From: Icerya purchasi | Lineage: Eukaryota > Arthropoda > Insecta > Hemiptera > Monophlebidae | Length of the DNA: 64,000 bases | Direction: 5' to 3' | NCBI GenBank assembly: GCA_039619475.1 | Contig: CM077115.1 | Location: forward strand, 494,967,352 to 495,031,351 | In this document: positions 25,242 to 54,875 of the stretch, in pieces | How the letters are laid out: every line of letters starts with the position of its first letter | Numbering within the stretch: position 1 is the stretch's first letter | Notes under the pieces: generated by a model | Databases searched by the model: none | What the model was told of the DNA's origin: nothing | The model's input: only the letters and a program-made list of their open reading frames with translations | Translations under genes and position numbers: made by a program

Positions 25242-25288
25242 ACCTTTGAATCGGTTGTGGCAGTGGAAATGTTACGTCAGAAAAATGT
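25242..25288 (-). promoter_or_regulatory. Conserved upstream block of the 339-aa gene (right arm)
   Basis: Mirror of 10789-10835. Confidence 0.6.
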
Positions 25289-26551: not shown

Positions 26552-26860
26552 TAGTGATGTGCGTCGAAATGTTTTTACAATCGAAACAATCAACAATCGT
26601 CAAAAAAAACAAAACAATCAAATGATTTTCATTCGAATGATTTGATTCGAATGATTTTAATTTGAATGATTTTAATTCAAATGATTTTGATTCAAATGAT
26701 TTTGATTCGAATGATTTTAATTCGAATGATTGTTGTGAATACAAATGAATTATTCGAATGAAATAACATTTCGAATGTAACTGTGGAACAATCGAATGCA
26801 TTCGAAGTTATCGAACAATCGAATAATTCGAATGAATCATTTCGAAGTTGCCCATCACTA
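26552..26860 (-). mobile_element. hAT-type MITE, copy B (right arm)
   Basis: Mirror of 9217-9525. Confidence 0.85.
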
Positions 26861-27143
26861 GTCAGTGCGCTTTTGTAACGATTGGAGAATAAGGAAAAAT
26901 TTTTGGAACCGTAGAAAATGAGAAATATACTTAGACTAATTTTATAATACTTACGGACGGAAAAATAATCGTAAGTGAGAAAAAATAATAAATATACTTG
27001 CACTAATTCTATGATACTTAGGCTTTGAAAAATTATTATGAACGATAGGGAAACTATCGAGAGCAGAATGTGCACGGGATCGAATGGATCGCTTTCGTGG
27101 TGGCTAACACTATGGTAGATATAAGCATGTGATCTGTCAGTGC

Positions 27144-27493
27144 TAGTGATGTGCGATTTCGAAATGTTTTTACAATCGAAACAATCAACAATCGTCAAAA
27201 AAAAAAAAACAAAACAAAAAAACAAAAAAACAATCGAATGATTTTGATTTAAATGATTTTAATTTGAATGATTTTGATTCGAATGATTTTGATTTGAATG
27301 ATTTTTGATTCGAATGATTTTAATTCGAATGATTTTGATTCGAATGATTTTAATTCGAATGATTGATGTGAATACGAATGAATTATACGAATGAAATAAC
27401 ATTTCGAATGCAACTGTGGAACAATCGAATGCATTCGAAGTTATCGAACAATCGAATAATTCGAATGAAACATTTCGAAGTTTCCCATCACTA
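27144..27493 (-). mobile_element. hAT-type MITE, copy A (right arm)
   Basis: Mirror of 8584-8933. Confidence 0.85.
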
Positions 27494-27760
27494 GTCAGTA
27501 CGTTTTTGTAACGATCGGAGAATAAAGAAAAAATTTTTGGAACCGTAGAAAATGAGAAATATACTTAGACCAATTTTTATAATGCTTAGGCATGGAAAAA
27601 ATAAAAAAATTAAAAAATACATTTGAATGGTATAAAGCAGGGAATAGGGAGCTCACGTTAGTTTTATGCTTTAAATATTATACTTTGGTTAATTTAAAAA
27701 AAAATTACGATATCGCTAACGATCGACATGTGTGTGAGAACGATGCATGCGCTTTTACTT

Positions 27761-27807
27761 GGTTTAAATCAGTTGTGGCAGTGGAAATATTACGTCAGAA
27801 AAATGTC
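27761..27807 (-). promoter_or_regulatory. Orphan copy of the conserved upstream block (right arm)
   Basis: Mirror of 8270-8316. Confidence 0.5.
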
Positions 27808-28597
27808 ATTCCGTCAGGAATAGTTGGTTACATATGCGCATTGAATAAAGTAGTCATGAGCTTTGAGTATGAGTATGTTTTTGTGTTAGTGTGTACATGT
27901 AGGGTGTATCCATCTACAATATGACATAGACTGTAATAGAAAGTATAAGAATGTTAAGATCCGGTTTCAACGGTTGCGTTAGCATTTACGTGTAGCGCTA
28001 TGAGAGAAGCATTTTCGCTTTTGCGATGTGTGAGATAGAGACTTACCCCCCCGTACATAATGTATCGGACAAAGAAAAGTTTTACGCAACTGACCGAACG
28101 AAAATCTTCGCGATTCCTAGAAATACCGGAACGGCGAAAACCTGTATTTTACCACGATTCCTGCAGACTGACCACTAATAATATTGATAACAACAAAATC
28201 CAATAATGATAATAACTAATTTTACATATGTGTACAGACGCTCGTAACCGTACATACATCATTGTGTGTGTGTGCGTAATCCTCCAAAACCAGTCGCTAC
28301 CGAATAACGGTAATTTACGTACAAGCAAAGGCATGCATCGGTCAATTGATTGACAGGTACAAGGTCACTTGCGATGGCATGCGTACGAATTTACCGCGAA
28401 AGTGATGATGATGGTGATTTTTACATGTGTGTACAGACGTATAAACACGTACATTTACATGTGTGTGCGGTAATTAAAGGATCGACAATCAAATGGAATG
28501 CGGTTCCGCAGTCCGAGACGCTCCGGAAACGGCTCTGGAAGGCCTTAATTAGCGGTGGCGGCATCCTTTGGCCGTGAACTGTCCTTTTACCACTACT
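27808..28597. other. Element I subterminal region (right arm)
   Basis: Mirror of 7480-8269. It carries the only arm-to-arm substitution I found (28253, C on this strand, against A at 7824). Confidence 0.55.
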
Positions 28598-28603
28598 CCT
28601 GTT
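28598..28603. repeat. Target-site duplication of element I, right
   Basis: CCTGTT, identical to 7474-7479. Confidence 0.92.
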
Positions 28604-34777: not shown

Positions 34778-34783
34778 GCCGGG
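34778..34783. repeat. Target-site duplication of element II, left
   Basis: GCCGGG directly before AGTAGGTAATAAATC; the same six bases follow the right arm at 54870-54875. Confidence 0.92.
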
Positions 34784-34879
34784 AGTAGGTAATAAATCTG
34801 CGTTCTGGCAGCTCTGACGTCACAACCCCTAAACGCGTGCAGAGGGCTGAAAGTAACGTAAGTATTTCATCAGGGAGGC

Positions 34880-37080
34880 AAAAACTAACCCAATTTTTTA
34901 TTCCGACGCCGAAAATTCACCCAAGTTTCCCCCAATTTCCCCAAAATTCCCCCCGTGCGTTCCCCTGCACATTTCCGATAAACTGATCCGATTATTAATT
35001 AACATAAGTATATTAATTAATGTCTGAAAGTAACCCAAGTCTCCGACCCCCCTCCCGCCCACTGCGTTACCGCGGTTTTTCAAAATTCCGGGCTTAAGTA
35101 TGAAAATTCCAAAATGTAACCCAAGTATGGTATTTAAAGCTAAAATTTAACCCAACACCCCCGTTCGCCCCTCACACATGTATATTACGATCCCGCGCAC
35201 GCTCCGGTCGCCACCGCGAAAGCGCACGCGCCGTTCCCACGCATATTCCGATCTCCGCCGCGATATCACATCCACACAAGCGTTCCATTCACGATACCAC
35301 AATTTTTTTATAAAATTAACTTAACTATATTTTTTTATTTACCGGATTCCCCGATCGTACAGACAAATCCGAAAGCACACGCACTGTTCCCGCGCATATA
35401 TCTAACATAACGTTCTCCACTGCAAAAGCGCACACGCCGTTCCTCCGCATGCCTCCCACGTTCACGATACCGAGATTATTTTTAATATTTCAAAGTCTAA
35501 GTATGGAAATTTCAAAATTAGCCTAAATATGTTTTTTATTTTTCCGATTCTCTGATCTTACTGCCATATGCCATGGCGCACGTCCCGATCCCGCGCATAT
35601 ATCTAACATACCGTTAGCCTCCGCGAAAGCGCACGCGCCGATCCCGCGCACTCATTGTTTGCTTGCGGATACCGCATTTTTAAAAATATTTCAAAGCCTA
35701 AGTATATATTATTATTCATACACTGATCAATTTTTTAAGGATCTTTCGTATTTTTACAAGTATAGACGCACCCGCGACGAAAAATTCTCCGATCATAGCA
35801 TTGCATGCAATCATCACCGCGTTATAGTATTTTTTTTAATTATTATTTTTTTTTTCACATAACAACCCAATCCCTGCTCTGTTGGCTAAACATACAAGGT
35901 TATCCAAAACATTTACAAATTAACAAATCAATTATTTCTATACTCAAAAACTATCCTTAGTCTCCTTTACCCTTTCCACCCTCTTTTCCAATCGATTATA
36001 ATATACATTATTTATTTTTTCTTATCCTTCCATCATCTTACACACTATGGTAGCTTAACATCCAATCCTGCACATACCGCTGCCGCTGTTTTAATATCTA
36101 ATATATAGCATTCTATTTACTTTTACTACGACCATTAAACCCCCGATCGACGCTCCCGACGCTTCCGTCATTTCATATTGAGAGGTAATTATTTTTTATG
36201 TGACCGCTATGAATGCCCACCGTCCATTCCAACACACTCATCTGTTGTCGTTAGTCTCCATATCGTTCATAATAACTTTTTTCAATTCCAAATATTATGG
36301 AATTATTCCAATTATATTTTTTTTATGCTTCCGATCATTTCTTCCGACTGTTGATAAATTTTTATTTTTTCTCCGATTCTAAAAATAAATCTCTCGATAC
36401 CTTCACTGCCATGAATGTGCACACACCCTCTGCAGTTAGTTTCCATATCGATCATAATAATTTTTTTTCAAATCTAACTATTATAGAATTAACCAAAGTA
36501 TATTTTCTTTACTTCAGATCATTTCTTCCGACTGTCCATAATTTTTTTATATTTTTTTCTACGGTTCAAAAAATAAATCCGACGAAGTCTTCATCAATAT
36601 GATTGTACACAACATATTCCCTCGCACTCAAATGCTACCGTTAGTTCTCACATCATTCATAATAATTTTTCATGTCTAAGTATTACTGAATTATTCTGAG
36701 TATATTTTTTCACCTCCAAAAATTTTTTCCAAACATGGGTAATAAAATTAATTCAAGTATATTTTTTTATTTAACACAGTTTCAAAATTTCTCCCTCCCC
36801 TATCCATCCTACACAAATTACAAATCTTTCGTATTATTTTTCATGACTACATCCATCCGAAGCTACAGTGAAACCTAACCAACCATTCCCACGTTCACAT
36901 ATGCTAGAGCTGGTTTCCATACCATTCATATTAATTTTTTTCCGAGTCTATTAGTTTAAGAATATTTTTATTTATTTCAATCTCTAAATATTTTTTTCTG
37001 AGTATTTTGTATTATACATATTTTTTCCCCTCTCTATTATGTCTGCACACAGTCGTAACGAAAAAATGCGCTGCTCATAT
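34880..37080. repeat. Element II subterminal degenerate repeat array (left arm)
   Basis: Repeated phrases: TAACCCAAGT (five variants in 34886-35160), CGAAAGCGCACGCGCCG, TCCCGCGCATATATCTAACA, CAAAGYCTAAGTATGGAAAT, AATTAGCCTAAATATGTTTT and CGTTAGTCTCC-ATATCGTTCATAATAA. Units recur at irregular spacing of about 100-200 bp and drift along the array, GC-richer near the end and AT-rich toward the gene. Element I has the same kind of array. No gene inside. Confidence 0.65.
34920..34965 (-). promoter_or_regulatory. Subterminal G-run cluster (left arm, minus strand)
   Basis: On the minus strand five to six G runs (3-6 G each) occur within 46 nt, separated by 5-7 nt such as AATTTT and AAATT. This is a candidate G-quadruplex about 140 nt from the end. 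Mirrored on the plus strand at 54688-54733. Confidence 0.6.
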
Positions 37081-37269
37081 CCTTACATGCATGTTGTCAT
37101 GACCTTGAATTCTTTCGTGTGACAATCAATATTATGTCTGCTGGGATCTTCCCCTTCATATCTTTCGTCGAAACCTGTTCACATGTACACACATACACAC
37201 AAACACATATATCCAAAAGATCATCTGCAAACTTCGACCGTGCACACCTACAACCAACTTTCACCAAAG

Positions 37270-37322
37270 GAATGTGGGTTTTCTGTTTTCTGGTGCAGCC
37301 CTCCCTTTTCAAAGGCAAGCAT
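37270..37322 (+). promoter_or_regulatory. Conserved upstream block of the 331-aa gene (left arm)
   Basis: A diverged version of the block before the 339-aa gene, with the same order: TTTTCTGKTGCAGCC-like centre, then CCTTTTCAAAGGCAAGC. It is followed by GTCAGTATTAGTGTTATGTC (37357-37376; element I has GTCAGTATTAGTTTTATGTT) and CTGTGTTCTTCACGCGTTAT (37398-37417). The ATG is at 37491. Confidence 0.55.
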
Positions 37323-37490
37323 CGAGCTAGATTGTCGAACGGATCTGATCGTGCAGTCAGTATTAGTGTTATGTCAAACGTGTGCATTTTGTAGAATCTG
37401 TGTTCTTCACGCGTTATTAAAGATTTGCCTTAACTTTAGAAGTAATAATTTTCTACGTTTTTAGTAAAAAGTTAAAAATATTATTCAAAC

Positions 37491-38486
37491 ATGAATAACA
37501 ATGCCGATCCGATTGATATTAAAACCGCTGAATTTATTCAGAATTCATTTTCGAGTGATAGCGGCTCGCATTCGTCTTCTTCACCTCCAACACCACAATG
37601 TGATGATGGTTATACATCAGAAGAATCAACATCTTTTGTATGTAAAATCGTTGATCCCGTATTATTATCAGAACAAGTGGATGTAGCGGAATATTTTGTA
37701 GATATCAGCATCCATATAGATTGTAATTATAGTTTCCGAGTAACCGAACTAGCAATGATTGATATGTCTGGCGGGAAGTGTTTGCATACGCTGTATAAAC
37801 CAAGCAGAGCATGGCATGCATCAAAAATGCCGCATTTACAATGTTCTTCAGTGAGTTATTACTTGAAAAACCCTTCATTATTTCCCTGTCGGGAAGAAAT
37901 ATTCATGGCACGCGATATATTCACGATATTGTCCCAAAAACCGAGGGCTCGCGTATATATTTTAACAGTATATGCTAAACTTACATTAATGGAACTTAAC
38001 GAATTGTTGCGTGACTTAGACTACGAAATCGTTAATATGGATCATGTCTTTCGAATGCCTAGTATTGAGGTTCTACATGAAGAGTATTTTGGTATAAGCA
38101 ATTTGGTAACTTGTAAACACCATAATGAAAATGATAGTTTTCATTGTGCAGTGAAAAACGTTATGGTGATGAAGACCTGGTATGATCATGTTATCCATCC
38201 GCTGAAGCTTATGAATAATCTCAATATAAATGATTTAAGTCAGTTGTTCATTACAGTCACCAAAGAAATGATAATTACATTATTTCCGAGTTGTGTTGGA
38301 GACATTTATATATTTTTACCAGATAGATTAAAACAGGATGATACGATAAAATCACTTCTACCATGTTTTGAACATGAGAATGATGAAGAATATTATTTCG
38401 ATGACGATACATTACGACATAGTACTCGAAATTGTATGAAAGTAAAAGATTGTATCGATTGTCAACGTACAATTCGCGCGGATTAA
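37491..38486 (+). CDS. Degenerate DEDDh exonuclease-like protein, 331 aa (left arm)
   Basis: Intact single-exon ORF, orthologue of the 339-aa protein of element I. Ser-rich N-terminal tail (about 23-55), then a motif I-like strand YFVDISI in place of D-x-E, YKPSRAWHASKMPHLQCSS, a FPSCVGDIYIFLPDRLKQDD block (fully conserved with I but for one residue), CKHH, FHCAVKNVMVM (motif III-like with Asp to Asn), LLPCFEH and a C-terminal C-x2-C. Differences from element I are spread evenly and are mostly conservative or synonymous, with no frame-breaking indel. This suggests selection on the protein since the two elements split. Function unknown; nucleic-acid binding inferred from the fold. Confidence 0.85.
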   Translation: MNNNADPIDIKTAEFIQNSFSSDSGSHSSSSPPTPQCDDGYTSEESTSFVCKIVDPVLLSEQVDVAEYFVDISIHIDCNYSFRVTELAMIDMSGGKCLHTLYKPSRAWHASKMPHLQCSSVSYYLKNPSLFPCREEIFMARDIFTILSQKPRARVYILTVYAKLTLMELNELLRDLDYEIVNMDHVFRMPSIEVLHEEYFGISNLVTCKHHNENDSFHCAVKNVMVMKTWYDHVIHPLKLMNNLNINDLSQLFITVTKEMIITLFPSCVGDIYIFLPDRLKQDDTIKSLLPCFEHENDEEYYFDDDTLRHSTRNCMKVKDCIDCQRTIRAD

Positions 38487-38803
38487 AAATTCATTAATTC
38501 ATTCGTTTTAATAATTTTGTAAATATTTATATGTATATATTTGTATATATTTTTCCCTCGATACATTCATTCTCCTATTGTATATATTTTTTCCTTTTCC
38601 CTCGATATCCGTTCGTTCGTTCATTCTATTGTATATATTTTTTTCCTACATATTTTTCGTCTTTTTCCGATCTTTTTCGATTTACGTTTATTTAATTTAT
38701 TTCTCTATCTACCTCTGTCTTCCCCTCTTAACTTGAAGTACTGGTAATGATGAACTTTTTTCAAAAATCTGAACCAGTTGTGTAAAATGTATATAATTAT
38801 TGT
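38487..38803. other. 3' flank of the 331-aa gene
   Basis: T-rich with three copies of a TTGTATATATTTTTTCC-type unit (38540-38650). No gene. Mirrored at 50850-51166. Confidence 0.55.
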
Positions 38804-38968
38804 TTAATTTTCGAATATAATCTTGCTTAATTTGTTCATATCTTTATAGATTAAAAAATTATATTTTTGCCTGTAATATTCCATCTTTTTTCTTTCTGTA
38901 ACACACGAATCTAACTGTTCAACTTTTTCACATACATCACATATTTCCGCAGCTGTGAGAGATTTCAT
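38804..38968 (-). CDS. Small ORF, 54 aa, coiled-coil-like (left arm)
   Basis: Mirror copy of 50685-50849; described there. Confidence 0.35.
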   Translation of the reverse strand: MKSLTAAEICDVCEKVEQLDSCVTERKKMEYYRQKYNFLIYKDMNKLSKIIFEN

Positions 38969-39419
38969 CTGTTTGTAGGATACAACCTCGGACTCTGATG
39001 GTTCTCTCAAAAATTTTTAAAATCTTTCGTAATCGCATTAAAAAAAAAAAAATACATATATGGTTTAATATTTTATATTTTGTAAATACTTTTTCGCGAT
39101 ATATACGAAATCATTCTAAGATTCATTGATGTTAAATGTATAGAAAGAGACAGGTAGAAGAAACCTGGTAGTTTACGAGACATAGAATGTTCGAAGAAAA
39201 AACGCGCTAGCACGAGCAGATCAGGGTTGCAACGTGCGAGCGAGAGACTGCATGCATGTATGTGTGTGCGATAAAGGGAGATAATCTCCAGAACAACAAC
39301 TTGATTGTAAAAAAAAAAACGTCGAAATCGTCTCTAGCCACCCCCCGAACAAGAGACGTATCGAAAACAAAAAAATAAAGGCAGTCTAAAAAAAAACTTC
39401 TTTTTTTCATTCATAGTAT

Positions 39420-41100
39420 TTTGTTGTTAGAATACTTATGGTCGTTGCCGTTCTCGATCGCGCTCCACTGTAAAGACCTCTGAACACGCAATACTAACGT
39501 TGCCAACACTAAGTTCCATATCGAATATAATATTTTTTCCTGTGTTATAAAATTATCCCAAGTATATTTTTATTCTTTCGTTACGCTAAAAGTTTTTCAA
39601 ATCTTTTTTAATATATATCGTGCACACAAATGTACGCCGCAGACACTTCCCGCTTCATTACCACTAATATATCTATACGTTCATTGTCTCTATTCTGATC
39701 ATAATATAGTTTTTTTCAGGAAAATCGTAGAAAATGGCTCTTCGCTCCGTTCATACTATGTAATCTATTTCCAAAATTTAAATCATGCCTAATTACTTTA
39801 AAATCAGCTTAAATATATTTTATCATTTCCAAAATTAATAATCTCATTACAGATCATTATCTCATTTCCCGATCGTACATAATATATATATTTTTTTTGT
39901 TATTATTTTATTTGTTTCCGTAAGAATTCTGGATATTATTCATATCAAACATTTGACCTTCACATTGTACCTGTATACTCATCTGTTTCAAAATTTTCAA
40001 AATAAGTATTATAAATAAATCCAAGTATACTATCCCAATATAAAAAAAAAACTCACATTGCATCTCCCATCAAACAATTAATTTTTTAGTATATCATACA
40101 TATTATTTTTTTATCGTTTAAATTTTTCTTCAATTTGCAACTGTCATAATCTATAGAAAACGTCTTGTTGACTAGATGCATGACGAATACACTCCTTATA
40201 ATTACATCATGAAATCATTTTTTCTTTAATTATTTTTTAACATCATGAAATTATAGTAGTATTTTTTAATTTTTTATTTTTCATACATGACAAAGATATT
40301 GAATTCATCACATCTATAAATGCATTCACTGTACGTCTCCATTAAACTATCATGAATTTTTAAAATTAGCCCAAACATACTATTTTTCACTATAAATTAC
40401 GGTCGCTCCTGTAATTTTTTCTATATAATCATTAACCTACGAAATCACTTCGATCGTTTCACTTATACCGAAGCAATCACTCCTTTTCCTTCATACTATC
40501 TATCTTCAAAGTCTAATAATATAACATGAAATTAGTCTAAATATAAAAATCCTGCAACATGTTTTAAAATTAGTCGAAGTGGACTATTTTTTCACTATCA
40601 AATCCGATCATACATCATTTTTTTTCTATATTATCATTATTGCAAGACCCTACAAAATCGTTTCGCTCATTTTACTTATAGCAATGCAATCAATCCTTTT
40701 TTCCTAGTGCTAGCGATCTTTAAAATTTAATACTATAATACGAAATTATTCTAAATATACGTTCATGCTAGCAAAATTATTACATCACCCCTTTTTTTTA
40801 CTCAATTGTATGTATGTTTCCGAGAAATCTCATTATATATTTTCAAAATTAACTCCAGCCCACGTACTATTTTTATATTTCACTTATTTATAATTGTTTT
40901 AATCATATCTGATGCAAGACCATGTAAAAGAATACAAGCAATTCCCACACATATAATTATTGTTCAGAGGTGTTGTGGGCATACTTTATCATATACTTTT
41001 GTAAGCTCATACCGAACGGACTTCATAACCTTTTATCATTCATTTAGATGCGGAGACACACAACTTTTAGCGGAGCAATCTATTCTTTGCTAAACTGATG
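39420..41100. repeat. Second degenerate repeat array of element II (left arm)
   Basis: Phrases like those of the subterminal array return (CCCAAGTATATTTTTATTC, AAATTAGYCYAAATATA, CATAATATAGTTTTTTTC, CGATCGTACATAATATA), so the array extends inside the 331-aa gene as well. Only short non-conserved open frames. Mirrored at 48553-50233. Confidence 0.5.
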
Positions 41101-41352
41101 ATTGAAGGCATCCTTTTTTTTTCTCCAAAAAAGCATGGAATAGCGAGGATTTTTTTACACACTCAAAATAAATGAGATAATTATTTCTCTATATTTAATA
41201 CATTACCAAGAATGTATATATCACTCGATTGACTCTTTCACTCATTCATCGATTTCAAATGCGAAGGAAATTTTCATACCATGCTTTATTCATACATTTT
41301 ATTTCTAAAACCCTATCACTTGAATAGAATGTTATAGGGCTGTTGTAAATGT

Positions 41353-41433
41353 ATGAGTCTTATTATTTGAAATATAAAATTTGAAGGAAATTTATATATC
41401 TTGCATCGTTTTAAGATGTTTTATTTTTACATT
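41353..41433. other. Non-coding block conserved between elements I and II
   Basis: Partner of 12857-12937; mirrored at 48220-48300. Confidence 0.6.
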
Positions 41434-41812
41434 TTTTTTTAATCTCCCTCTTACTATTATTTTTGAAATGGAGGTTGATGACGATGATTAGTATTTGTGA
41501 TTATAGAGGGAGAGGTAAACGTTTTCCTCACTTTTGACTAATTGTAACCAATTTCCCAATGATTTTTTCACCATTTTTCATACATCTTACTACTTTTATG
41601 TTTGTTTTAATCAATTTTTCGCTATTTCACATCATTTTCCAGTGTTTTTTAGTACTTTTTACAAAATTTTCCTTGATCTTTCAACATGTTTGACAAGTTT
41701 TTTTCTTTTCTTTCTTACATCTCATTACTATTTCATTAATCGTCAATGATAACAGTACATATTTATGTTTTCAAACCTTACACTTCATCTGTACACATCT
41801 ATGGCTTGTTGA
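41434..41812. other. Intergenic DNA of element II arm
   Basis: T-rich on this strand, with many TTTTCA/TTTTAC hexamer-like phrases; similar phrases fill 42160-42420. No gene. Mirrored at 47841-48219. Confidence 0.5.
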
Positions 41813-42031
41813 TTATTGTAGGTCTACAATCACGATCTCCATTTGATTATTGGATTTAATATTCACATCTTTGAACGTTTGATTTAATGAATTGACATGG
41901 ACTTTGTATTTCGCTCGCCCGCTCAATATCTTCATCAGTCTATTATACCATCGTTTAATAAGAGCATCCATAAGGTTCGAGACGATTACTGGATGTTTTC
42001 TCAACACATTTACAGACCTACCCCAGTACAC
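41813..42031 (-). pseudogene. ORF remnant, up to 72 codons (left arm)
   Basis: Mirror copy of 47622-47840; described there. Confidence 0.35.
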
Positions 42032-42635
42032 TAAGGAAATCTTTAAACATCTCTGTAATCACTCCTTTTAAGCTAGAGGGGGCAAGGGACTCCTATAATC
42101 GTTTTGACAATCAACACATCGTCGTCTATTGTCATGTCTTTACTCGCCGTTGCACAGACATGTAGTAAACGTTTTTTTCTTTTACAATTTTCTTATATTT
42201 CAACACTATTACAACATTTTACATCATTTCTAACTAATTTTAATCAGTTTTACATTATTTCTTAACATGTTCTTATGTTTTAGGGTCTTTTTGCGCTATT
42301 TTTTTCACCAATTGATGCTTTTTCTCAGAATTTTCTTGCGTTTTAGTGTCTTTCACACAATTTTACTCAATTTTCATCATCTTCGTCAGTTTTTCATTTA
42401 TCTCATACATTATATGTCTAAATGTGTCGAATATCCATCCTTTTAACTACAAATATTTTATAATTTGATATGGTCATAGATAATAACAAAAGATTTAATT
42501 CAATATTGTTTACAATTTATTCAATAATTTTTATGACATTCATCATAATCAATAAAAATAATCATTGCTTCATTGCTTCAATGTTAAATTCTAATATATC
42601 ATTATCAGCTATTAATATTTTATACCATAAAACGT
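42032..42635. other. 3' flank of the DUF8207-like gene (left arm)
   Basis: Repetitive TTTTCA-type sequence and the polyadenylation region of the DUF8207-like gene. No gene. Mirrored at 47018-47621. Confidence 0.55.
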
Positions 42636-43613
42636 CTAATTTAACTGAATATATCCTTCTTCAGCCAACTTTTCTTCAATCATCCGAATTTCAGTATCTA
42701 AACCATTATTTCCTGATTGTTTAGATTTGTGTAGTACCAATAATCGTTCAACCAATTCATTAGGATCGTCAGAATAATTGAAATGAGAGTCTTCAAGATT
42801 TACTTTGCGAACAGTTCTATATGCACGTTTCTTTTTCGTTTTACCTGGATAAACTTTTACATTTTTTATGATGGATTGAAACAGAGGACGTATTATTTTT
42901 CTGTATTTAGGAAGCGGAGTACCCTTTAATACACCAGTAACACGTACGTGAGCTCCGGTAAATTCCAGTATTTGTTTATATAAAGCTAAATCATTATTTG
43001 TATATTTATTCTCATCAACATTTGTTTCCATCAGTAAATGAATCAGTCCTTGTGTGTAAGGAAATTTAGATAGTGTTCTTCCTTTTCCTAAATAAATTTC
43101 ACCACATTTTCGATTCCACGAAATTGGTGTTGAACCCATCATATACTCATGAGTGTTAGCATTATATTGTATTCCATACACAGGATCATTTGGTACAGGT
43201 TCACCACCATCTATTTGAAATGGAGCCGTTTCATATATGTTAATAGCCTTATATCCAGACTTATTATCGCGATTTTCATATTCTTCTTCATTTTCAATAT
43301 CAGTCTCATAATCACGTTTCCAGCTGTCATTATAAAGTTTGTGACGTTTCACCATTGATGTATCATCACTTATTCCATCAGAATCATTTTTCATTCTTTT
43401 AGGTATTTGTAATGTTTCCCGAATATCCAATAACTGTTTTGTAACAGGTTCAAGCATGATAGATGACATATTTGTAATAGATTTCCAGGTCTGTAATGCA
43501 TTATATTTTTTCATTATATCGCTGCGTATCCTTTCCAGTTCACTTTTAAGAATTGCTTCTTTATTTATTCCATTATTACCAACATTAACCATCACTTTAC
43601 TCATTGACATCAT
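42636..43613 (-). CDS. DUF8207-like protein, 325 aa (left arm)
   Basis: Mirror copy of 46040-47017 with an identical protein; domain description there. Transcribed away from the centre. Confidence 0.88.
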   Translation of the reverse strand: MMSMSKVMVNVGNNGINKEAILKSELERIRSDIMKKYNALQTWKSITNMSSIMLEPVTKQLLDIRETLQIPKRMKNDSDGISDDTSMVKRHKLYNDSWKRDYETDIENEEEYENRDNKSGYKAINIYETAPFQIDGGEPVPNDPVYGIQYNANTHEYMMGSTPISWNRKCGEIYLGKGRTLSKFPYTQGLIHLLMETNVDENKYTNNDLALYKQILEFTGAHVRVTGVLKGTPLPKYRKIIRPLFQSIIKNVKVYPGKTKKKRAYRTVRKVNLEDSHFNYSDDPNELVERLLVLHKSKQSGNNGLDTEIRMIEEKLAEEGYIQLN

Positions 43614-43960
43614 TATTACAGATAATTAAAAATTCGTCAAAACACACATGTACAACTTCTCTATGTATACATTTCACAATCTATTTTGATCATAGAGAGT
43701 TAATGCATATTCATCATCAATAATTTATAGAATGTTTTTCAAGGCTTAAAGAAATATACTGTATTTCAATCTGTTCCCTAAATACACTATTTATGAAACA
43801 AATTCTTTATAAATAAATATAAACACCAAAAATGGGGTAAGAAATCTTAATGTAATTTAAGAATCATATTATTTATTTTTCAATATACTAATATCTCAAA
43901 ATATGTGATAACACCTAAACTTTTACCAATGATATTACAAAATCTAGAGCAGTGTGATTC

Positions 43961-44124
43961 ACACACATATATATCTACATATATATCTACATATATATCT
44001 ACATATATACATATATATCTACATATATACATACATATCTACATATATACATATATATCTACATATATACATATATATCTACATATATACATACATATCT
44101 ACATATATACATATATATATCTAC

Positions 44125-44160
<36 letters not shown>

Positions 44161-44164
44161 CTAC

Positions 44165-44196
<32 letters not shown>

Positions 44197-44435
44197 CTAC
44201 ATATATACATATATATATATCTACATATATACATACATATCTACATATATACATATATATCTACATATATACATACATATCTACATATCTACATATATAT
44301 ATCTACATATATACATATATATCAACAATACACATATATATCTACATATATACATATATATCAACATATACACATATATATATCTACATATATACATATA
44401 TTTCGACATGTACTAATATATATCTACATATGACA
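43961..44435. repeat. ATATAC/ATCTAC microsatellite (left arm)
   Basis: About 475 bp of mixed ACATATAT and ATCTACATATATAC units with pure (AT)n stretches. Long Tyr/Ile/His open frames here are compositional. The right-arm copy (45213-45692) is about 10 bp longer and arranged differently, making it the fastest-changing part of the palindrome. Confidence 0.95.
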
Positions 44436-44804
44436 TGCTATACTTTATGAGATGAGTATGTTACAGAATTCAATTATCAACTAACAATATTGTTATACAA
44501 ACATAATTTATAAAATGATATAAATTTCACAAATGTCACTAAAGGTACATGTTTTTCTTTTTGGGACATTCTACACAAAATTACTCAACAACACTACACT
44601 TTAAATAATTTTTAACAAAAATTATAATTTTTGTATATTATTTACTATTTTTTATTACTTAAATTATACTTCACATTATATAAGTTATACAAATTTCAAT
44701 ATATCAAGCTAGGGTGGATTTGCTGGAAATGTAACATCGGCCTAAACAGTTGATGGAATAAAAGTGAATTTGTCATATTTTCTAGTTTTGAGGGGGCTTG
44801 TTTC
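44436..44804. other. Centre-proximal DNA of element II (left arm)
   Basis: Non-coding; homologous in part to the centre-proximal DNA of element I. Mirrored at 44839-45207. Confidence 0.6.
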
Positions 44805-44838
44805 TGTATTATTGAAGATGGATCATATGGTGGTATTT
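44805..44838. other. Centre (loop) of palindrome II
   Basis: A 34-nt non-mirrored spacer between GGGGGCTTGTTTC (left) and GAAACAAGCCCCC (right). Confidence 0.9.
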
Positions 44839-45212
44839 GAAACAAGCCCCCTCAAAACTAGAAAATATGACAAATTCACTTTTATTCCATCAACTGTTTA
44901 GGCCGATGTTACATTTCCAGCAAATCCACCCTAGCTTGATATATTGAAATTTGTATAACTTATATAATGTGAAGTATAATTTAAGTAATAAAAAATAGTA
45001 AATAATATAAAAAAATTATAATTTTTGTTAAAAATTATTTAAAGTGTAGTGTTGTTGAGTAATTTTGTGTAGAATGTCCCAAAAAGAAAAACATGTACCT
45101 TTAGTGACATTTGTGAAATTTATATCATTTTATAAATTATGTTTGTATAACAATATTGTTAGTTGATAATTGAATTCTGTAACATACTCATCTCATAAAG
45201 TATAGCATGTCA

Positions 45213-45486
45213 TATGTAGATATATATTAGTACATGTCGAAATATATGTATATATGTAGATATATATATGTGTATATGTTGATATATATGTATATATGTA
45301 GATATATATGTGTATTGTTGATATATATGTATATATGTAGATATATATATGTATATATGTAGATATATATATGTAGATATGTAGATATGTATGTATATAT
45401 GTAGATATATATGTATATATGTAGATATGTATGTATATATGTAGATATATATGTATATATGTAGATATATATATATGTATATATGT

Positions 45487-45528
<42 letters not shown>

Positions 45529-45692
45529 GTAGATATATATATGTATATATGTAGATATGTATGTATATATGTAGATATATATGTATATATGTAGATATAT
45601 ATGTATATATGTAGATATGTATGTATATATGTAGATATATATGTATATATGTAGATATATATGTAGATATATATGTAGATATATATGTGTGT
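45213..45692. repeat. ATATAC/ATCTAC microsatellite (right arm)
   Basis: Mirror of 43961-44435, with internal rearrangement and 10 bp net gain. Confidence 0.95.
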
Positions 45693-46039
45693 GAATCACA
45701 CTGCTCTAGATTTTGTAATATCATTGGTAAAAGTTTAGGTGTTATCACATATTTTGAGATATTAGTATATTGAAAAATAAATAATATGATTCTTAAATTA
45801 CATTAAGATTTCTTACCCCATTTTTGGTGTTTATATTTATTTATAAAGAATTTGTTTCATAAATAGTGTATTTAGGGAACAGATTGAAATACAGTATATT
45901 TCTTTAAGCCTTGAAAAACATTCTATAAATTATTGATGATGAATATGCATTAACTCTCTATGATCAAAATAGATTGTGAAATGTATACATAGAGAAGTTG
46001 TACATGTGTGTTTTGACGAATTTTTAATTATCTGTAATA
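45693..46039. other. Leader region of the DUF8207-like gene (right arm)
   Basis: AT-rich and non-coding; presumably carries its promoter. ATGTATACATAGAGAAGTTG before the gene parallels ATGTATGTATAAAGGAAGAT before the element I pseudogene. Mirrored at 43614-43960. Confidence 0.5.
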
Positions 46040-47017
46040 ATGATGTCAATGAGTAAAGTGATGGTTAATGTTGGTAATAATGGAATAAATAAAGAAGCAA
46101 TTCTTAAAAGTGAACTGGAAAGGATACGCAGCGATATAATGAAAAAATATAATGCATTACAGACCTGGAAATCTATTACAAATATGTCATCTATCATGCT
46201 TGAACCTGTTACAAAACAGTTATTGGATATTCGGGAAACATTACAAATACCTAAAAGAATGAAAAATGATTCTGATGGAATAAGTGATGATACATCAATG
46301 GTGAAACGTCACAAACTTTATAATGACAGCTGGAAACGTGATTATGAGACTGATATTGAAAATGAAGAAGAATATGAAAATCGCGATAATAAGTCTGGAT
46401 ATAAGGCTATTAACATATATGAAACGGCTCCATTTCAAATAGATGGTGGTGAACCTGTACCAAATGATCCTGTGTATGGAATACAATATAATGCTAACAC
46501 TCATGAGTATATGATGGGTTCAACACCAATTTCGTGGAATCGAAAATGTGGTGAAATTTATTTAGGAAAAGGAAGAACACTATCTAAATTTCCTTACACA
46601 CAAGGACTGATTCATTTACTGATGGAAACAAATGTTGATGAGAATAAATATACAAATAATGATTTAGCTTTATATAAACAAATACTGGAATTTACCGGAG
46701 CTCACGTACGTGTTACTGGTGTATTAAAGGGTACTCCGCTTCCTAAATACAGAAAAATAATACGTCCTCTGTTTCAATCCATCATAAAAAATGTAAAAGT
46801 TTATCCAGGTAAAACGAAAAAGAAACGTGCATATAGAACTGTTCGCAAAGTAAATCTTGAAGACTCTCATTTCAATTATTCTGACGATCCTAATGAATTG
46901 GTTGAACGATTATTGGTACTACACAAATCTAAACAATCAGGAAATAATGGTTTAGATACTGAAATTCGGATGATTGAAGAAAAGTTGGCTGAAGAAGGAT
47001 ATATTCAGTTAAATTAG
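46040..47017 (+). CDS. DUF8207-like protein, 325 aa (right arm)
   Basis: Intact single-exon ORF; the first of two close ATGs was chosen. Residues 15-70 are predicted by eye to be helical/coiled coil, and 75-120 are charged and disordered. The core (about 142-215) carries NDPVYGIQY (142-150), the STPISW segment, GEIYLGKG (171-178), YTQGLIHLL (186-194), YTNNDLALYKQIL (204-216) and G-A-H (220-222). This order (DPxYGI, xIxLGxK, TxGLxxLL, YTxxDLxxYxxIL, xAH) is what I know as the DUF8207 domain of many insect and other invertebrate mobile-element-type proteins. A Lys/Arg-rich stretch follows (about 247-262), then SDDPNELVERLLVLHKS and a helical EIRMIEEKLAEEGYI tail, also typical of that family. 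AATAAA at 47132-47137. Function unknown; the basic tract suggests DNA contact (inference). Confidence 0.88.
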   Translation: MMSMSKVMVNVGNNGINKEAILKSELERIRSDIMKKYNALQTWKSITNMSSIMLEPVTKQLLDIRETLQIPKRMKNDSDGISDDTSMVKRHKLYNDSWKRDYETDIENEEEYENRDNKSGYKAINIYETAPFQIDGGEPVPNDPVYGIQYNANTHEYMMGSTPISWNRKCGEIYLGKGRTLSKFPYTQGLIHLLMETNVDENKYTNNDLALYKQILEFTGAHVRVTGVLKGTPLPKYRKIIRPLFQSIIKNVKVYPGKTKKKRAYRTVRKVNLEDSHFNYSDDPNELVERLLVLHKSKQSGNNGLDTEIRMIEEKLAEEGYIQLN

Positions 47018-47621
47018 ACGTTTTATGGTATAAAATATTAATAGCTGATAATGATATATTAGAATTTAACATTGAAGCAATGAAGCAATGATTATTTTTA
47101 TTGATTATGATGAATGTCATAAAAATTATTGAATAAATTGTAAACAATATTGAATTAAATCTTTTGTTATTATCTATGACCATATCAAATTATAAAATAT
47201 TTGTAGTTAAAAGGATGGATATTCGACACATTTAGACATATAATGTATGAGATAAATGAAAAACTGACGAAGATGATGAAAATTGAGTAAAATTGTGTGA
47301 AAGACACTAAAACGCAAGAAAATTCTGAGAAAAAGCATCAATTGGTGAAAAAAATAGCGCAAAAAGACCCTAAAACATAAGAACATGTTAAGAAATAATG
47401 TAAAACTGATTAAAATTAGTTAGAAATGATGTAAAATGTTGTAATAGTGTTGAAATATAAGAAAATTGTAAAAGAAAAAAACGTTTACTACATGTCTGTG
47501 CAACGGCGAGTAAAGACATGACAATAGACGACGATGTGTTGATTGTCAAAACGATTATAGGAGTCCCTTGCCCCCTCTAGCTTAAAAGGAGTGATTACAG
47601 AGATGTTTAAAGATTTCCTTA

Positions 47622-47840
47622 GTGTACTGGGGTAGGTCTGTAAATGTGTTGAGAAAACATCCAGTAATCGTCTCGAACCTTATGGATGCTCTTATTAAAC
47701 GATGGTATAATAGACTGATGAAGATATTGAGCGGGCGAGCGAAATACAAAGTCCATGTCAATTCATTAAATCAAACGTTCAAAGATGTGAATATTAAATC
47801 CAATAATCAAATGGAGATCGTGATTGTAGACCTACAATAA
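47622..47840 (+). pseudogene. ORF remnant, up to 72 codons (right arm)
   Basis: Open frame whose first Met-like codon is GTG, so it lacks a good start. The only nearby ATG upstream (47603) is in another frame and stops after ten codons at a TAG; a shift there would join both. The first in-frame ATG is well inside (about codon 21). The protein has non-repetitive composition (RKHPVIVSNLMDALIKRWYN is its most protein-like stretch), unlike the surrounding AT-rich noise. It could be a decayed gene or the last exon of a spliced one. No family recognised. Confidence 0.35.
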
Positions 47841-48219
47841 TCAACAAGCCATAGATGTGTACAGATGAAGTGTAAGGTTTGAAAACATAAATATGTACTG
47901 TTATCATTGACGATTAATGAAATAGTAATGAGATGTAAGAAAGAAAAGAAAAAAACTTGTCAAACATGTTGAAAGATCAAGGAAAATTTTGTAAAAAGTA
48001 CTAAAAAACACTGGAAAATGATGTGAAATAGCGAAAAATTGATTAAAACAAACATAAAAGTAGTAAGATGTATGAAAAATGGTGAAAAAATCATTGGGAA
48101 ATTGGTTACAATTAGTCAAAAGTGAGGAAAACGTTTACCTCTCCCTCTATAATCACAAATACTAATCATCGTCATCAACCTCCATTTCAAAAATAATAGT
48201 AAGAGGGAGATTAAAAAAA

Positions 48220-48300
48220 AATGTAAAAATAAAACATCTTAAAACGATGCAAGATATATAAATTTCCTTCAAATTTTATATTTCAAATAATAAGACTCAT
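48220..48300. other. Conserved non-coding block (right arm of II)
   Basis: Mirror of 41353-41433. Confidence 0.6.
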
Positions 48301-48552
48301 ACATTTACAACAGCCCTATAACATTCTATTCAAGTGATAGGGTTTTAGAAATAAAATGTATGAATAAAGCATGGTATGAAAATTTCCTTCGCATTTGAAA
48401 TCGATGAATGAGTGAAAGAGTCAATCGAGTGATATATACATTCTTGGTAATGTATTAAATATAGAGAAATAATTATCTCATTTATTTTGAGTGTGTAAAA
48501 AAATCCTCGCTATTCCATGCTTTTTTGGAGAAAAAAAAAGGATGCCTTCAAT

Positions 48553-50233
48553 CATCAGTTTAGCAAAGAATAGATTGCTCCGCTAAAAGTTGTGTGTCTC
48601 CGCATCTAAATGAATGATAAAAGGTTATGAAGTCCGTTCGGTATGAGCTTACAAAAGTATATGATAAAGTATGCCCACAACACCTCTGAACAATAATTAT
48701 ATGTGTGGGAATTGCTTGTATTCTTTTACATGGTCTTGCATCAGATATGATTAAAACAATTATAAATAAGTGAAATATAAAAATAGTACGTGGGCTGGAG
48801 TTAATTTTGAAAATATATAATGAGATTTCTCGGAAACATACATACAATTGAGTAAAAAAAAGGGGTGATGTAATAATTTTGCTAGCATGAACGTATATTT
48901 AGAATAATTTCGTATTATAGTATTAAATTTTAAAGATCGCTAGCACTAGGAAAAAAGGATTGATTGCATTGCTATAAGTAAAATGAGCGAAACGATTTTG
49001 TAGGGTCTTGCAATAATGATAATATAGAAAAAAAATGATGTATGATCGGATTTGATAGTGAAAAAATAGTCCACTTCGACTAATTTTAAAACATGTTGCA
49101 GGATTTTTATATTTAGACTAATTTCATGTTATATTATTAGACTTTGAAGATAGATAGTATGAAGGAAAAGGAGTGATTGCTTCGGTATAAGTGAAACGAT
49201 CGAAGTGATTTCGTAGGTTAATGATTATATAGAAAAAATTACAGGAGCGACCGTAATTTATAGTGAAAAATAGTATGTTTGGGCTAATTTTAAAAATTCA
49301 TGATAGTTTAATGGAGACGTACAGTGAATGCATTTATAGATGTGATGAATTCAATATCTTTGTCATGTATGAAAAATAAAAAATTAAAAAATACTACTAT
49401 AATTTCATGATGTTAAAAAATAATTAAAGAAAAAATGATTTCATGATGTAATTATAAGGAGTGTATTCGTCATGCATCTAGTCAACAAGACGTTTTCTAT
49501 AGATTATGACAGTTGCAAATTGAAGAAAAATTTAAACGATAAAAAAATAATATGTATGATATACTAAAAAATTAATTGTTTGATGGGAGATGCAATGTGA
49601 GTTTTTTTTTTATATTGGGATAGTATACTTGGATTTATTTATAATACTTATTTTGAAAATTTTGAAACAGATGAGTATACAGGTACAATGTGAAGGTCAA
49701 ATGTTTGATATGAATAATATCCAGAATTCTTACGGAAACAAATAAAATAATAACAAAAAAAATATATATATTATGTACGATCGGGAAATGAGATAATGAT
49801 CTGTAATGAGATTATTAATTTTGGAAATGATAAAATATATTTAAGCTGATTTTAAAGTAATTAGGCATGATTTAAATTTTGGAAATAGATTACATAGTAT
49901 GAACGGAGCGAAGAGCCATTTTCTACGATTTTCCTGAAAAAAACTATATTATGATCAGAATAGAGACAATGAACGTATAGATATATTAGTGGTAATGAAG
50001 CGGGAAGTGTCTGCGGCGTACATTTGTGTGCACGATATATATTAAAAAAGATTTGAAAAACTTTTAGCGTAACGAAAGAATAAAAATATACTTGGGATAA
50101 TTTTATAACACAGGAAAAAATATTATATTCGATATGGAACTTAGTGTTGGCAACGTTAGTATTGCGTGTTCAGAGGTCTTTACAGTGGAGCGCGATCGAG
50201 AACGGCAACGACCATAAGTATTCTAACAACAAA
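48553..50233. repeat. Second degenerate repeat array of element II (right arm)
   Basis: Mirror of 39420-41100. Confidence 0.5.
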
Positions 50234-50684
50234 ATACTATGAATGAAAAAAAGAAGTTTTTTTTTAGACTGCCTTTATTTTTTTGTTTTCGATACGTCTC
50301 TTGTTCGGGGGGTGGCTAGAGACGATTTCGACGTTTTTTTTTTTACAATCAAGTTGTTGTTCTGGAGATTATCTCCCTTTATCGCACACACATACATGCA
50401 TGCAGTCTCTCGCTCGCACGTTGCAACCCTGATCTGCTCGTGCTAGCGCGTTTTTTCTTCGAACATTCTATGTCTCGTAAACTACCAGGTTTCTTCTACC
50501 TGTCTCTTTCTATACATTTAACATCAATGAATCTTAGAATGATTTCGTATATATCGCGAAAAAGTATTTACAAAATATAAAATATTAAACCATATATGTA
50601 TTTTTTTTTTTTTAATGCGATTACGAAAGATTTTAAAAATTTTTGAGAGAACCATCAGAGTCCGAGGTTGTATCCTACAAACAG

Positions 50685-50849
50685 ATGAAATCTCTCACAG
50701 CTGCGGAAATATGTGATGTATGTGAAAAAGTTGAACAGTTAGATTCGTGTGTTACAGAAAGAAAAAAGATGGAATATTACAGGCAAAAATATAATTTTTT
50801 AATCTATAAAGATATGAACAAATTAAGCAAGATTATATTCGAAAATTAA
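50685..50849 (+). CDS. Small ORF, 54 aa, coiled-coil-like (right arm)
   Basis: ATG-initiated frame of 54 codons. Composition is protein-like: SLTAAEICDVCEKVEQLDS followed by a Lys/Tyr/Glu-rich amphipathic helix. The same frame stays open upstream to 50643 without an ATG, behind a pyrimidine run and AG dinucleotides. It could therefore be the terminal exon of a spliced gene. There is no counterpart in element I that I can see. No family recognised; it may be a chance frame. Confidence 0.35.
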   Translation: MKSLTAAEICDVCEKVEQLDSCVTERKKMEYYRQKYNFLIYKDMNKLSKIIFEN

Positions 50850-51166
50850 ACAATAATTATATACATTTTACACAACTGGTTCAGATTTTTGAAAAAAGTT
50901 CATCATTACCAGTACTTCAAGTTAAGAGGGGAAGACAGAGGTAGATAGAGAAATAAATTAAATAAACGTAAATCGAAAAAGATCGGAAAAAGACGAAAAA
51001 TATGTAGGAAAAAAATATATACAATAGAATGAACGAACGAACGGATATCGAGGGAAAAGGAAAAAATATATACAATAGGAGAATGAATGTATCGAGGGAA
51101 AAATATATACAAATATATACATATAAATATTTACAAAATTATTAAAACGAATGAATTAATGAATTT

Positions 51167-52162
51167 TTAATCCGCGCGAATTGTACGTTGACAATCGATA
51201 CAATCTTTTACTTTCATACAATTTCGAGTACTATGTCGTAATGTATCGTCATCGAAATAATATTCTTCATCATTCTCATGTTCAAAACATGGTAGAAGTG
51301 ATTTTATCGTATCATCCTGTTTTAATCTATCTGGTAAAAATATATAAATGTCTCCAACACAACTCGGAAATAATGTAATTATCATTTCTTTGGTGACTGT
51401 AATGAACAACTGACTTAAATCATTTATATTGAGATTATTCATAAGCTTCAGCGGATGGATAACATGATCATACCAGGTCTTCATCACCATAACGTTTTTC
51501 ACTGCACAATGAAAACTATCATTTTCATTATGGTGTTTACAAGTTACCAAATTGCTTATACCAAAATACTCTTCATGTAGAACCTCAATACTAGGCATTC
51601 GAAAGACATGATCCATATTAACGATTTCGTAGTCTAAGTCACGCAACAATTCGTTAAGTTCCATTAATGTAAGTTTAGCATATACTGTTAAAATATATAC
51701 GCGAGCCCTCGGTTTTTGGGACAATATCGTGAATATATCGCGTGCCATGAATATTTCTTCCCGACAGGGAAATAATGAAGGGTTTTTCAAGTAATAACTC
51801 ACTGAAGAACATTGTAAATGCGGCATTTTTGATGCATGCCATGCTCTGCTTGGTTTATACAGCGTATGCAAACACTTCCCGCCAGACATATCAATCATTG
51901 CTAGTTCGGTTACTCGGAAACTATAATTACAATCTATATGGATGCTGATATCTACAAAATATTCCGCTACATCCACTTGTTCTGATAATAATACGGGATC
52001 AACGATTTTACATACAAAAGATGTTGATTCTTCTGATGTATAACCATCATCACATTGTGGTGTTGGAGGTGAAGAAGACGAATGCGAGCCGCTATCACTC
52101 GAAAATGAATTCTGAATAAATTCAGCGGTTTTAATATCAATCGGATCGGCATTGTTATTCAT
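51167..52162 (-). CDS. Degenerate DEDDh exonuclease-like protein, 331 aa (right arm)
   Basis: Mirror copy of 37491-38486 with an identical protein; domain description given there. Confidence 0.85.
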   Translation of the reverse strand: MNNNADPIDIKTAEFIQNSFSSDSGSHSSSSPPTPQCDDGYTSEESTSFVCKIVDPVLLSEQVDVAEYFVDISIHIDCNYSFRVTELAMIDMSGGKCLHTLYKPSRAWHASKMPHLQCSSVSYYLKNPSLFPCREEIFMARDIFTILSQKPRARVYILTVYAKLTLMELNELLRDLDYEIVNMDHVFRMPSIEVLHEEYFGISNLVTCKHHNENDSFHCAVKNVMVMKTWYDHVIHPLKLMNNLNINDLSQLFITVTKEMIITLFPSCVGDIYIFLPDRLKQDDTIKSLLPCFEHENDEEYYFDDDTLRHSTRNCMKVKDCIDCQRTIRAD

Positions 52163-52330
52163 GTTTGAATAATATTTTTAACTTTTTACTAAAAACGTAG
52201 AAAATTATTACTTCTAAAGTTAAGGCAAATCTTTAATAACGCGTGAAGAACACAGATTCTACAAAATGCACACGTTTGACATAACACTAATACTGACTGC
52301 ACGATCAGATCCGTTCGACAATCTAGCTCG

Positions 52331-52383
52331 ATGCTTGCCTTTGAAAAGGGAGGGCTGCACCAGAAAACAGAAAACCCACATTC
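52331..52383 (-). promoter_or_regulatory. Conserved upstream block of the 331-aa gene (right arm)
   Basis: Mirror of 37270-37322. Confidence 0.55.
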
Positions 52384-52572
52384 CTTTGGTGAAAGTTGGT
52401 TGTAGGTGTGCACGGTCGAAGTTTGCAGATGATCTTTTGGATATATGTGTTTGTGTGTATGTGTGTACATGTGAACAGGTTTCGACGAAAGATATGAAGG
52501 GGAAGATCCCAGCAGACATAATATTGATTGTCACACGAAAGAATTCAAGGTCATGACAACATGCATGTAAGG

Positions 52573-54773
52573 ATATGAGCAGCGCATTTTTTCGTTACGA
52601 CTGTGTGCAGACATAATAGAGAGGGGAAAAAATATGTATAATACAAAATACTCAGAAAAAAATATTTAGAGATTGAAATAAATAAAAATATTCTTAAACT
52701 AATAGACTCGGAAAAAAATTAATATGAATGGTATGGAAACCAGCTCTAGCATATGTGAACGTGGGAATGGTTGGTTAGGTTTCACTGTAGCTTCGGATGG
52801 ATGTAGTCATGAAAAATAATACGAAAGATTTGTAATTTGTGTAGGATGGATAGGGGAGGGAGAAATTTTGAAACTGTGTTAAATAAAAAAATATACTTGA
52901 ATTAATTTTATTACCCATGTTTGGAAAAAATTTTTGGAGGTGAAAAAATATACTCAGAATAATTCAGTAATACTTAGACATGAAAAATTATTATGAATGA
53001 TGTGAGAACTAACGGTAGCATTTGAGTGCGAGGGAATATGTTGTGTACAATCATATTGATGAAGACTTCGTCGGATTTATTTTTTGAACCGTAGAAAAAA
53101 ATATAAAAAAATTATGGACAGTCGGAAGAAATGATCTGAAGTAAAGAAAATATACTTTGGTTAATTCTATAATAGTTAGATTTGAAAAAAAATTATTATG
53201 ATCGATATGGAAACTAACTGCAGAGGGTGTGTGCACATTCATGGCAGTGAAGGTATCGAGAGATTTATTTTTAGAATCGGAGAAAAAATAAAAATTTATC
53301 AACAGTCGGAAGAAATGATCGGAAGCATAAAAAAAATATAATTGGAATAATTCCATAATATTTGGAATTGAAAAAAGTTATTATGAACGATATGGAGACT
53401 AACGACAACAGATGAGTGTGTTGGAATGGACGGTGGGCATTCATAGCGGTCACATAAAAAATAATTACCTCTCAATATGAAATGACGGAAGCGTCGGGAG
53501 CGTCGATCGGGGGTTTAATGGTCGTAGTAAAAGTAAATAGAATGCTATATATTAGATATTAAAACAGCGGCAGCGGTATGTGCAGGATTGGATGTTAAGC
53601 TACCATAGTGTGTAAGATGATGGAAGGATAAGAAAAAATAAATAATGTATATTATAATCGATTGGAAAAGAGGGTGGAAAGGGTAAAGGAGACTAAGGAT
53701 AGTTTTTGAGTATAGAAATAATTGATTTGTTAATTTGTAAATGTTTTGGATAACCTTGTATGTTTAGCCAACAGAGCAGGGATTGGGTTGTTATGTGAAA
53801 AAAAAAATAATAATTAAAAAAAATACTATAACGCGGTGATGATTGCATGCAATGCTATGATCGGAGAATTTTTCGTCGCGGGTGCGTCTATACTTGTAAA
53901 AATACGAAAGATCCTTAAAAAATTGATCAGTGTATGAATAATAATATATACTTAGGCTTTGAAATATTTTTAAAAATGCGGTATCCGCAAGCAAACAATG
54001 AGTGCGCGGGATCGGCGCGTGCGCTTTCGCGGAGGCTAACGGTATGTTAGATATATGCGCGGGATCGGGACGTGCGCCATGGCATATGGCAGTAAGATCA
54101 GAGAATCGGAAAAATAAAAAACATATTTAGGCTAATTTTGAAATTTCCATACTTAGACTTTGAAATATTAAAAATAATCTCGGTATCGTGAACGTGGGAG
54201 GCATGCGGAGGAACGGCGTGTGCGCTTTTGCAGTGGAGAACGTTATGTTAGATATATGCGCGGGAACAGTGCGTGTGCTTTCGGATTTGTCTGTACGATC
54301 GGGGAATCCGGTAAATAAAAAAATATAGTTAAGTTAATTTTATAAAAAAATTGTGGTATCGTGAATGGAACGCTTGTGTGGATGTGATATCGCGGCGGAG
54401 ATCGGAATATGCGTGGGAACGGCGCGTGCGCTTTCGCGGTGGCGACCGGAGCGTGCGCGGGATCGTAATATACATGTGTGAGGGGCGAACGGGGGTGTTG
54501 GGTTAAATTTTAGCTTTAAATACCATACTTGGGTTACATTTTGGAATTTTCATACTTAAGCCCGGAATTTTGAAAAACCGCGGTAACGCAGTGGGCGGGA
54601 GGGGGGTCGGAGACTTGGGTTACTTTCAGACATTAATTAATATACTTATGTTAATTAATAATCGGATCAGTTTATCGGAAATGTGCAGGGGAACGCACGG
54701 GGGGAATTTTGGGGAAATTGGGGGAAACTTGGGTGAATTTTCGGCGTCGGAATAAAAAATTGGGTTAGTTTTT
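52573..54773. repeat. Element II subterminal degenerate repeat array (right arm)
   Basis: Mirror of 34880-37080. Confidence 0.65.
54688..54733 (+). promoter_or_regulatory. Subterminal G-run cluster (right arm)
   Basis: G runs at 54688-54691, 54699-54704, 54711-54714, 54720-54724 and 54731-54733. Mirror of 34920-34965. Confidence 0.6.
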
Positions 54774-54869
54774 GCCTCCCTGATGAAATACTTACGTTAC
54801 TTTCAGCCCTCTGCACGCGTTTAGGGGTTGTGACGTCAGAGCTGCCAGAACGCAGATTTATTACCTACT

Positions 54870-54875
54870 GCCGGG
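54870..54875. repeat. Target-site duplication of element II, right
   Basis: GCCGGG, identical to 34778-34783. Confidence 0.92.

Follow-up and report, generated by a model that had tools for sequence, protein, structure and literature searches.

A large family of full-length palindromic elements with Maverick-type ends in the genome of Icerya purchasi

Mavericks (Polintons) are described in passages of PMC8097293 as elements with (AGT)2//(ACT)2 ends and perfect 6-bp target duplications, and the intact vertebrate copies treated there measure 12,723-24,620 bp, with repeats of 46-1,447 bp at their termini. The same passages connect the repeated end motif to jumping-back protein-primed replication; adenoviruses and tectiviruses serve there as the analogy from which protein-primed strand displacement is expected in Mavericks. 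The present analysis deals with a stretch of 64,000 bp of the genome of the insect Icerya purchasi (contig CM077115.1, C1:494967352-495031351; the window), which contains two palindromic insertions, element I (7480..28597) and element II (34784..54869). The latter is the main subject here and belongs to a large and real family that has known, Maverick-type ends and is unusual in being palindromic over its full length. With a probability of about 0.6, element II is interpreted as a copy of a non-autonomous Maverick satellite that would be copied in trans via a folded-back strand.

Strands that snap back and are copied with the aid of a helper are known from self-complementary genomes of adeno-associated virus and from defective genomes of adenoviruses that contain long inverted duplications. 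The palindromes of I. purchasi would work alike, with a snap-back strand and helper-dependent copying, whereas the viral forms are laboratory by-products or vectors and the palindromes make up a genomic family of high copy number, in which a gene is under selection. Transposons of the Foldback/Galileo group differ from the palindromes in their ends, duplication length and size, and have no known link to Mavericks. A likeness to the Galileo-type elements, which are named in PMC8504770, is that inverted repeats of great length take up a large part of the element. Teratorn differs by a piggyBac-like transposase, 18-bp terminal inverted repeats and herpesvirus genes, according to excerpts of PMC6431247. 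A literature search, which was not exhaustive, yielded no description of comparable palindromic or non-autonomous Mavericks, and the words Maverick, Polinton and palindrom are absent from the main text of the Icerya assembly paper (PMC11183206).

Element II has a length of 20,086 bp and is enclosed by two copies of the target duplication GCCGGG (34778..34783 and 54870..54875, + strand), which were read from the sequence. The initial annotation had described a 20-kb palindrome with this 6-bp duplication, and its coordinates turned out to be exact. By comparison of the element with its own reverse complement, the centre was placed at 44821.5, around which 383 of 400 positions pair. The element starts with AGTAGG and ends with CCTACT. 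Its left arm (34784..44821, + strand) and the mirrored right arm (44822..54869, - strand) have no mismatch in the first 9,377 bp of the ungapped comparison, which corresponds to position 44160 in the left arm. All 670 arm mismatches are located at offsets 9,377-10,708, that is in the centre and in an AT-rich ATATAC satellite, which flanks the centre on both sides (43929..45724) and in which the arms lose register. Each arm carries a gene for a protein of 331 amino acids (aa) (37491..38486, + strand, and 51167..52162, - strand) and one for a protein of 325 aa (42636..43613, - strand, and 46040..47017, + strand). The label "DUF8207-like" given earlier is not supported for the 325-aa gene, as Pfam-A gave no such match at E <= 1.

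Further members of the family were searched in the whole genome (1,103,370,081 bases in 41 contigs, 601,656,059 of these in C1). The 331-aa protein has at least 121 scored matches (of 3,519 candidates), 112 of which are arranged as 56 convergent inverted pairs; the span of 34 pairs is 14-15 kb. For a 276-aa protein encoded in element I, at least 140 scored matches (of 2,966 candidates) were obtained, and 128 of these form 64 divergent pairs that are 2.7-4.9 kb apart. Both counts are lower bounds, and ten adjacent palindrome pairs among them may be contig overlaps written twice. The genome contains over a hundred inverted gene pairs of palindromic elements, and the family is present throughout, so the reservation of the initial annotation that neither element might occur elsewhere does not apply.

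The ends were inspected in 22 copies, namely elements I and II, ten copies picked from the 56 pairs and ten further copies, which were taken from 14 with both ends among the 40 matches listed. An exact 6-bp target duplication was found in 21 of them (I and II, nine of the first ten, all of the second ten); in the remaining copy, L035/L036, the ends are lost in a TA repeat. In the nine resolved copies from the 56 pairs, the duplications are copy-specific. AGTAG stands at either end of every one of the 21 resolved copies, and in 13 of them both ends show the full AGTAGT. The three elements measured in full have sizes of 20,086, 20,188 and 21,118 bp, whereas the end-to-end spacing of some copies is shorter or longer (11.7 to 46.7 kb). 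The longest, a palindrome of the type of element II at C2:198239811-198286507, spans 46.7 kb and encloses two pairs of the 276-aa gene; here one palindrome seems to be nested within another. Because arms and copies are near-identical, the family has probably been active recently.

The palindromes therefore share with the Mavericks of PMC8097293, as far as they are characterized in the passages cited above, the AGT-repeat end (with AGTAGG in element II itself), the perfect 6-bp duplication, a size within about 12.7-24.6 kb and the dispersed insertions. They differ in that the terminal repeat comprises the whole half of the element: the arms have a length of about 10 kb and leave no unique middle, whereas in those Mavericks a unique middle is bordered by repeats of 46-1,447 bp. 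A further difference concerns the core genes. In a Pfam-A scan of 25 open reading frames, a part of those of elements I and II, no recognised Maverick gene was found (integrase, ATPase, protease and capsid), a result that spliced or very diverged genes could escape. None of the 133 matches to the polymerase family PF03175 listed for the genome is located within the window.

The arms within a copy are much more alike than the arms of different copies. In all 11 copies compared, which do not include the unresolved copy L035/L036, the terminal 5,400 bp or so of the two arms differ at 0-6 sites (gaps uncounted). Between the left arms of eight copies of the subfamily of element II, 3-68 differences were counted, with at least 20 in 25 of the 28 comparisons. 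The left arms of two copies of another subfamily differ at 225 of 4,977 sites, and left arms of different subfamilies at 619 to 1,426 of about 3,800-4,000 aligned sites. Within the eight copies, 88 copy-private variants are present in both arms, compared to 9 sites that differ between the arms. The same pattern is seen in the protein matches: 51 of the 56 pairs of the 331-aa protein have equal scores within the pair. When the pairs with the top score are set aside, equality is found in 40 of the remaining 45, whereas 10,000 shuffles gave 1.4 on average and 8 at most. For the 276-aa protein, equal scores were found in 59 of 64 pairs (mean of 9.1 and maximum of 19 in 5,000 shuffles). Since copy-private variants and equal scores are common to both arms, the arms of each copy became alike together with or after its marking change.

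Element I (21,118 bp) ends in AGTAGT/ACTACT and is flanked by the target duplication CCTGTT (7474..7479 and 28598..28603, + strand). Its layout is that of element II, and 396 of 400 positions pair around its centre. A 339-aa gene (11086..12105, + strand, and 23971-24990, - strand) corresponds to the 331-aa gene, with a DNA identity of 85% over 978 bp. The 325-aa gene has a broken relative in element I (16812..17412, - strand, mirrored in the right arm), for which the identity is 73% over 1,131 bp of DNA and 57% over 89 aa of protein; little else of the two elements can be aligned. The 276-aa gene (15388..16218, - strand, and 19857-20687, + strand) is a paralogue that occurs in element I only of the two, and its product is 28% identical to the 339-aa protein. 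The earlier claim of clearly diverged elements with the same architecture and a different 6-bp duplication each is thus supported. That of different gene sets holds for the broken 325-aa relative and the additional paralogue, but not for the 331/339-aa gene, which is present in both.

The three flanks of elements I and II have nothing in common but short diverged repeats, most with 65-73% identity and none at the insertion borders. A duplication of one locus, which had been considered in the initial annotation and would show in shared flanks, is thereby rejected, and the two elements are independent insertions of one family, as was proposed there. An unrelated origin of the two is likewise rejected, because the gene order agrees and a stretch next to the centre aligns. 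This alignment (74% over 123 bp) reaches to 149 bp from the centre of element I and to 53 bp from that of element II. As the two diverged elements can thus be aligned nearly as far as their centres, they probably inherited the palindrome from a common ancestor; independent fold-backs would be expected to choose different centres. The arms of element I furthermore contain a directly repeated sequence of about 0.6 kb (8477-9723 and its mirror). It includes short tandem units, and parts of it recur inverted at 14670-15118. A motif of about 40-65 bp like the one repeated in these arms is also located outside any element, at 62936-63000 of the window.

A dN/dS ratio (nonsynonymous to synonymous substitutions) of 0.22-0.31 between subfamilies indicates that the 331/339-aa gene is under purifying selection; in comparison with the 276-aa paralogue the ratio is saturated or undefined. 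The 325-aa gene shows 6 changes between the two copies compared, too few for such a ratio. For the 339-aa and 276-aa proteins, both relatives of the 331-aa protein, an RNase H-like topology was predicted with low confidence. In the six aligned sequences of the 331/339/276-aa family, D76 is invariant and followed at +2 by S or Q, so that the first catalytic motif of the DEDDh type, D-x-E, is not present in them. Outside the genome, no relatives of the 339-aa and 325-aa proteins were found at E <= 0.01. Viral contigs contained no relative of the 325-aa protein and none for the alignment A1, prokaryote genomes contained no relative of the 325-aa protein, and the PDB sequences gave nothing better than E 0.34. 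The initial annotation had named the pair of elements as the best candidate for an undescribed system; a wholly undescribed one is not supported, since ends and duplication are as published for Mavericks, whereas the full-length palindrome, the copy number and the gene kept under selection are unusual.

Replication in trans by Maverick proteins, combined with fold-back, is the likely way by which the palindromes are copied; because of the ends, the duplications and the genome setting, a Maverick integrase and polymerase are the most likely proteins to act. At each AGT-repeat end, a terminal protein would serve as the starting point of the polymerase, and the strand displaced by it would be self-complementary over almost its entire length. 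This strand would snap back to a hairpin of about 10 kb with the origin at the open end. Mismatches between the arms would be repaired inside the hairpin, by which the arms are homogenised, and replication round the hairpin loop would regenerate a palindrome with identical arms, which the integrase would insert with a 6-bp staggered cut. The palindrome itself would have arisen once, probably by fold-back in a Maverick ancestor, and have been inherited since. More tentatively, and with somewhat less than even odds, the family may represent a class of self-complementary Maverick satellites, which would be parasites of a virus-like transposon without any replication and capsid genes left; their mobile form would be a 10-kb hairpin, one of its arms would be rewritten in each cycle after the model of the other, and the element's own genes would exploit the helper.

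Possible donors of the proteins are copies bearing a PF03175 polymerase. For this family, at least 133 matches were obtained genome-wide from 91 scored candidates (of 638), many of them in open frames of 1,220-1,290 codons, while 14 control genomes gave no match. The polymerases were called Maverick genes by the family PF03175, not by whole elements. Twelve of the copies form six convergent inverted pairs, and in all five pairs with two comparable stretches the sequence is mirrored around the same base. From these mirrored pairs, fold-back seems to befall polymerase-bearing elements too, and polymerase-bearing palindromes probably exist. At C1:427202338-427223292 (with L044 at 427212640-427213010), two such palindromes are adjacent and separated by 100 N. 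The sequence on both sides of this run is near-mirrored, as 52 bases pair with two 1-base gaps, and the run is likely a scaffold gap. As two of the six polymerase pairs lie side by side, five may be independent. Some of the palindromes that are neighbours in the assembly probably represent a single locus in duplicate. The ten adjacent 276-aa pairs were considered as true concatemers of tandem palindromes; because the one adjacent polymerase pair that was read has 100 N between near-mirrored ends, they were counted as probably unmerged contigs.

Several observations weigh against the interpretation as a folded-back Maverick satellite. No sequence homology was found between the palindromes and any Maverick, and the likeness of the ends is one to published Mavericks. 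Among the scored matches, 9 of 121 (331-aa protein) and 12 of 140 (276-aa protein) are unpaired. The arms of copy L023/L024 differ at 6 sites, and its left arm is only 3 sites away from that of L029. Furthermore, shared variants fit copying before insertion and gene conversion in the chromosome alike. In a copy at C2:77.55 Mb, of whose right half much is missing, 44 private variants are common to both arms over 3 kb, compared to 22 sites of difference, and the shared variants end abruptly: 17 of the 22 differences are located in the last 0.7 kb. In this part no private variant is shared, and of the 17 differences, 13 are private variants of the right arm and 2 of the left, with 2 undecided. 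Shared and unshared variants form 10 runs, compared to a mean of 30.3 after shuffling, and none of 10,000 shuffles gave a number as low. This is most simply explained by another copy having overwritten a part of the left arm. The pattern shows that exchange acts on single arms, so that conversion stays alive as an explanation.

The strongest alternative to fold-back is chromosomal gene conversion. It keeps the arms of Y-chromosome palindromes identical, and the palindromes of I. purchasi could be of Maverick type with arms kept identical mainly in this way and not by a folded-back intermediate. Private variants common to both arms are also predicted by it, and the patchy distribution at C2:77.55 Mb demonstrates exchange on arms. 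However, the block of unshared variants in this copy is one-sided, for which a left arm overwritten from elsewhere in the family is a better explanation than conversion from arm to arm, and the copy was dropped as a proof of the latter. Conversion also leaves the making of a fresh palindrome at each insertion unexplained. We regard it as rather unlikely, at about half the weight of the folded-back satellite. A separate transposon with its own integrase-like system, resembling Mavericks only in end motif and duplication length, is improbable: the predicted protein model also fits exonucleases, and over longer stretches, and end motif, 6-bp duplication and size jointly match Mavericks. Although palindromes may disturb assembly, as suggested by the 100 N between the near-mirrored polymerase palindromes, single-armed elements or elements with long terminal inverted repeats falsely written as palindromes are very improbable and were rejected for copies with matched duplications, because 21 of 22 copies are joined to flanks of their own by an exact 6-bp duplication, 5 of 11 copies still show between their arms 1-6 sites of difference, and the assembly was made from PacBio HiFi reads with hifiasm, according to PMC11183206.

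If element II and its relatives are copied by fold-back, they would document protein-primed replication by strand displacement as it takes place naturally in an animal, and self-complementary viral genomes would have a natural counterpart in them. A Maverick satellite could then spread widely while its own gene stays under selection. Palindromes that are long and perfect are generally regarded as unstable in a chromosome, yet the genome of I. purchasi carries more than a hundred inverted gene pairs of them.

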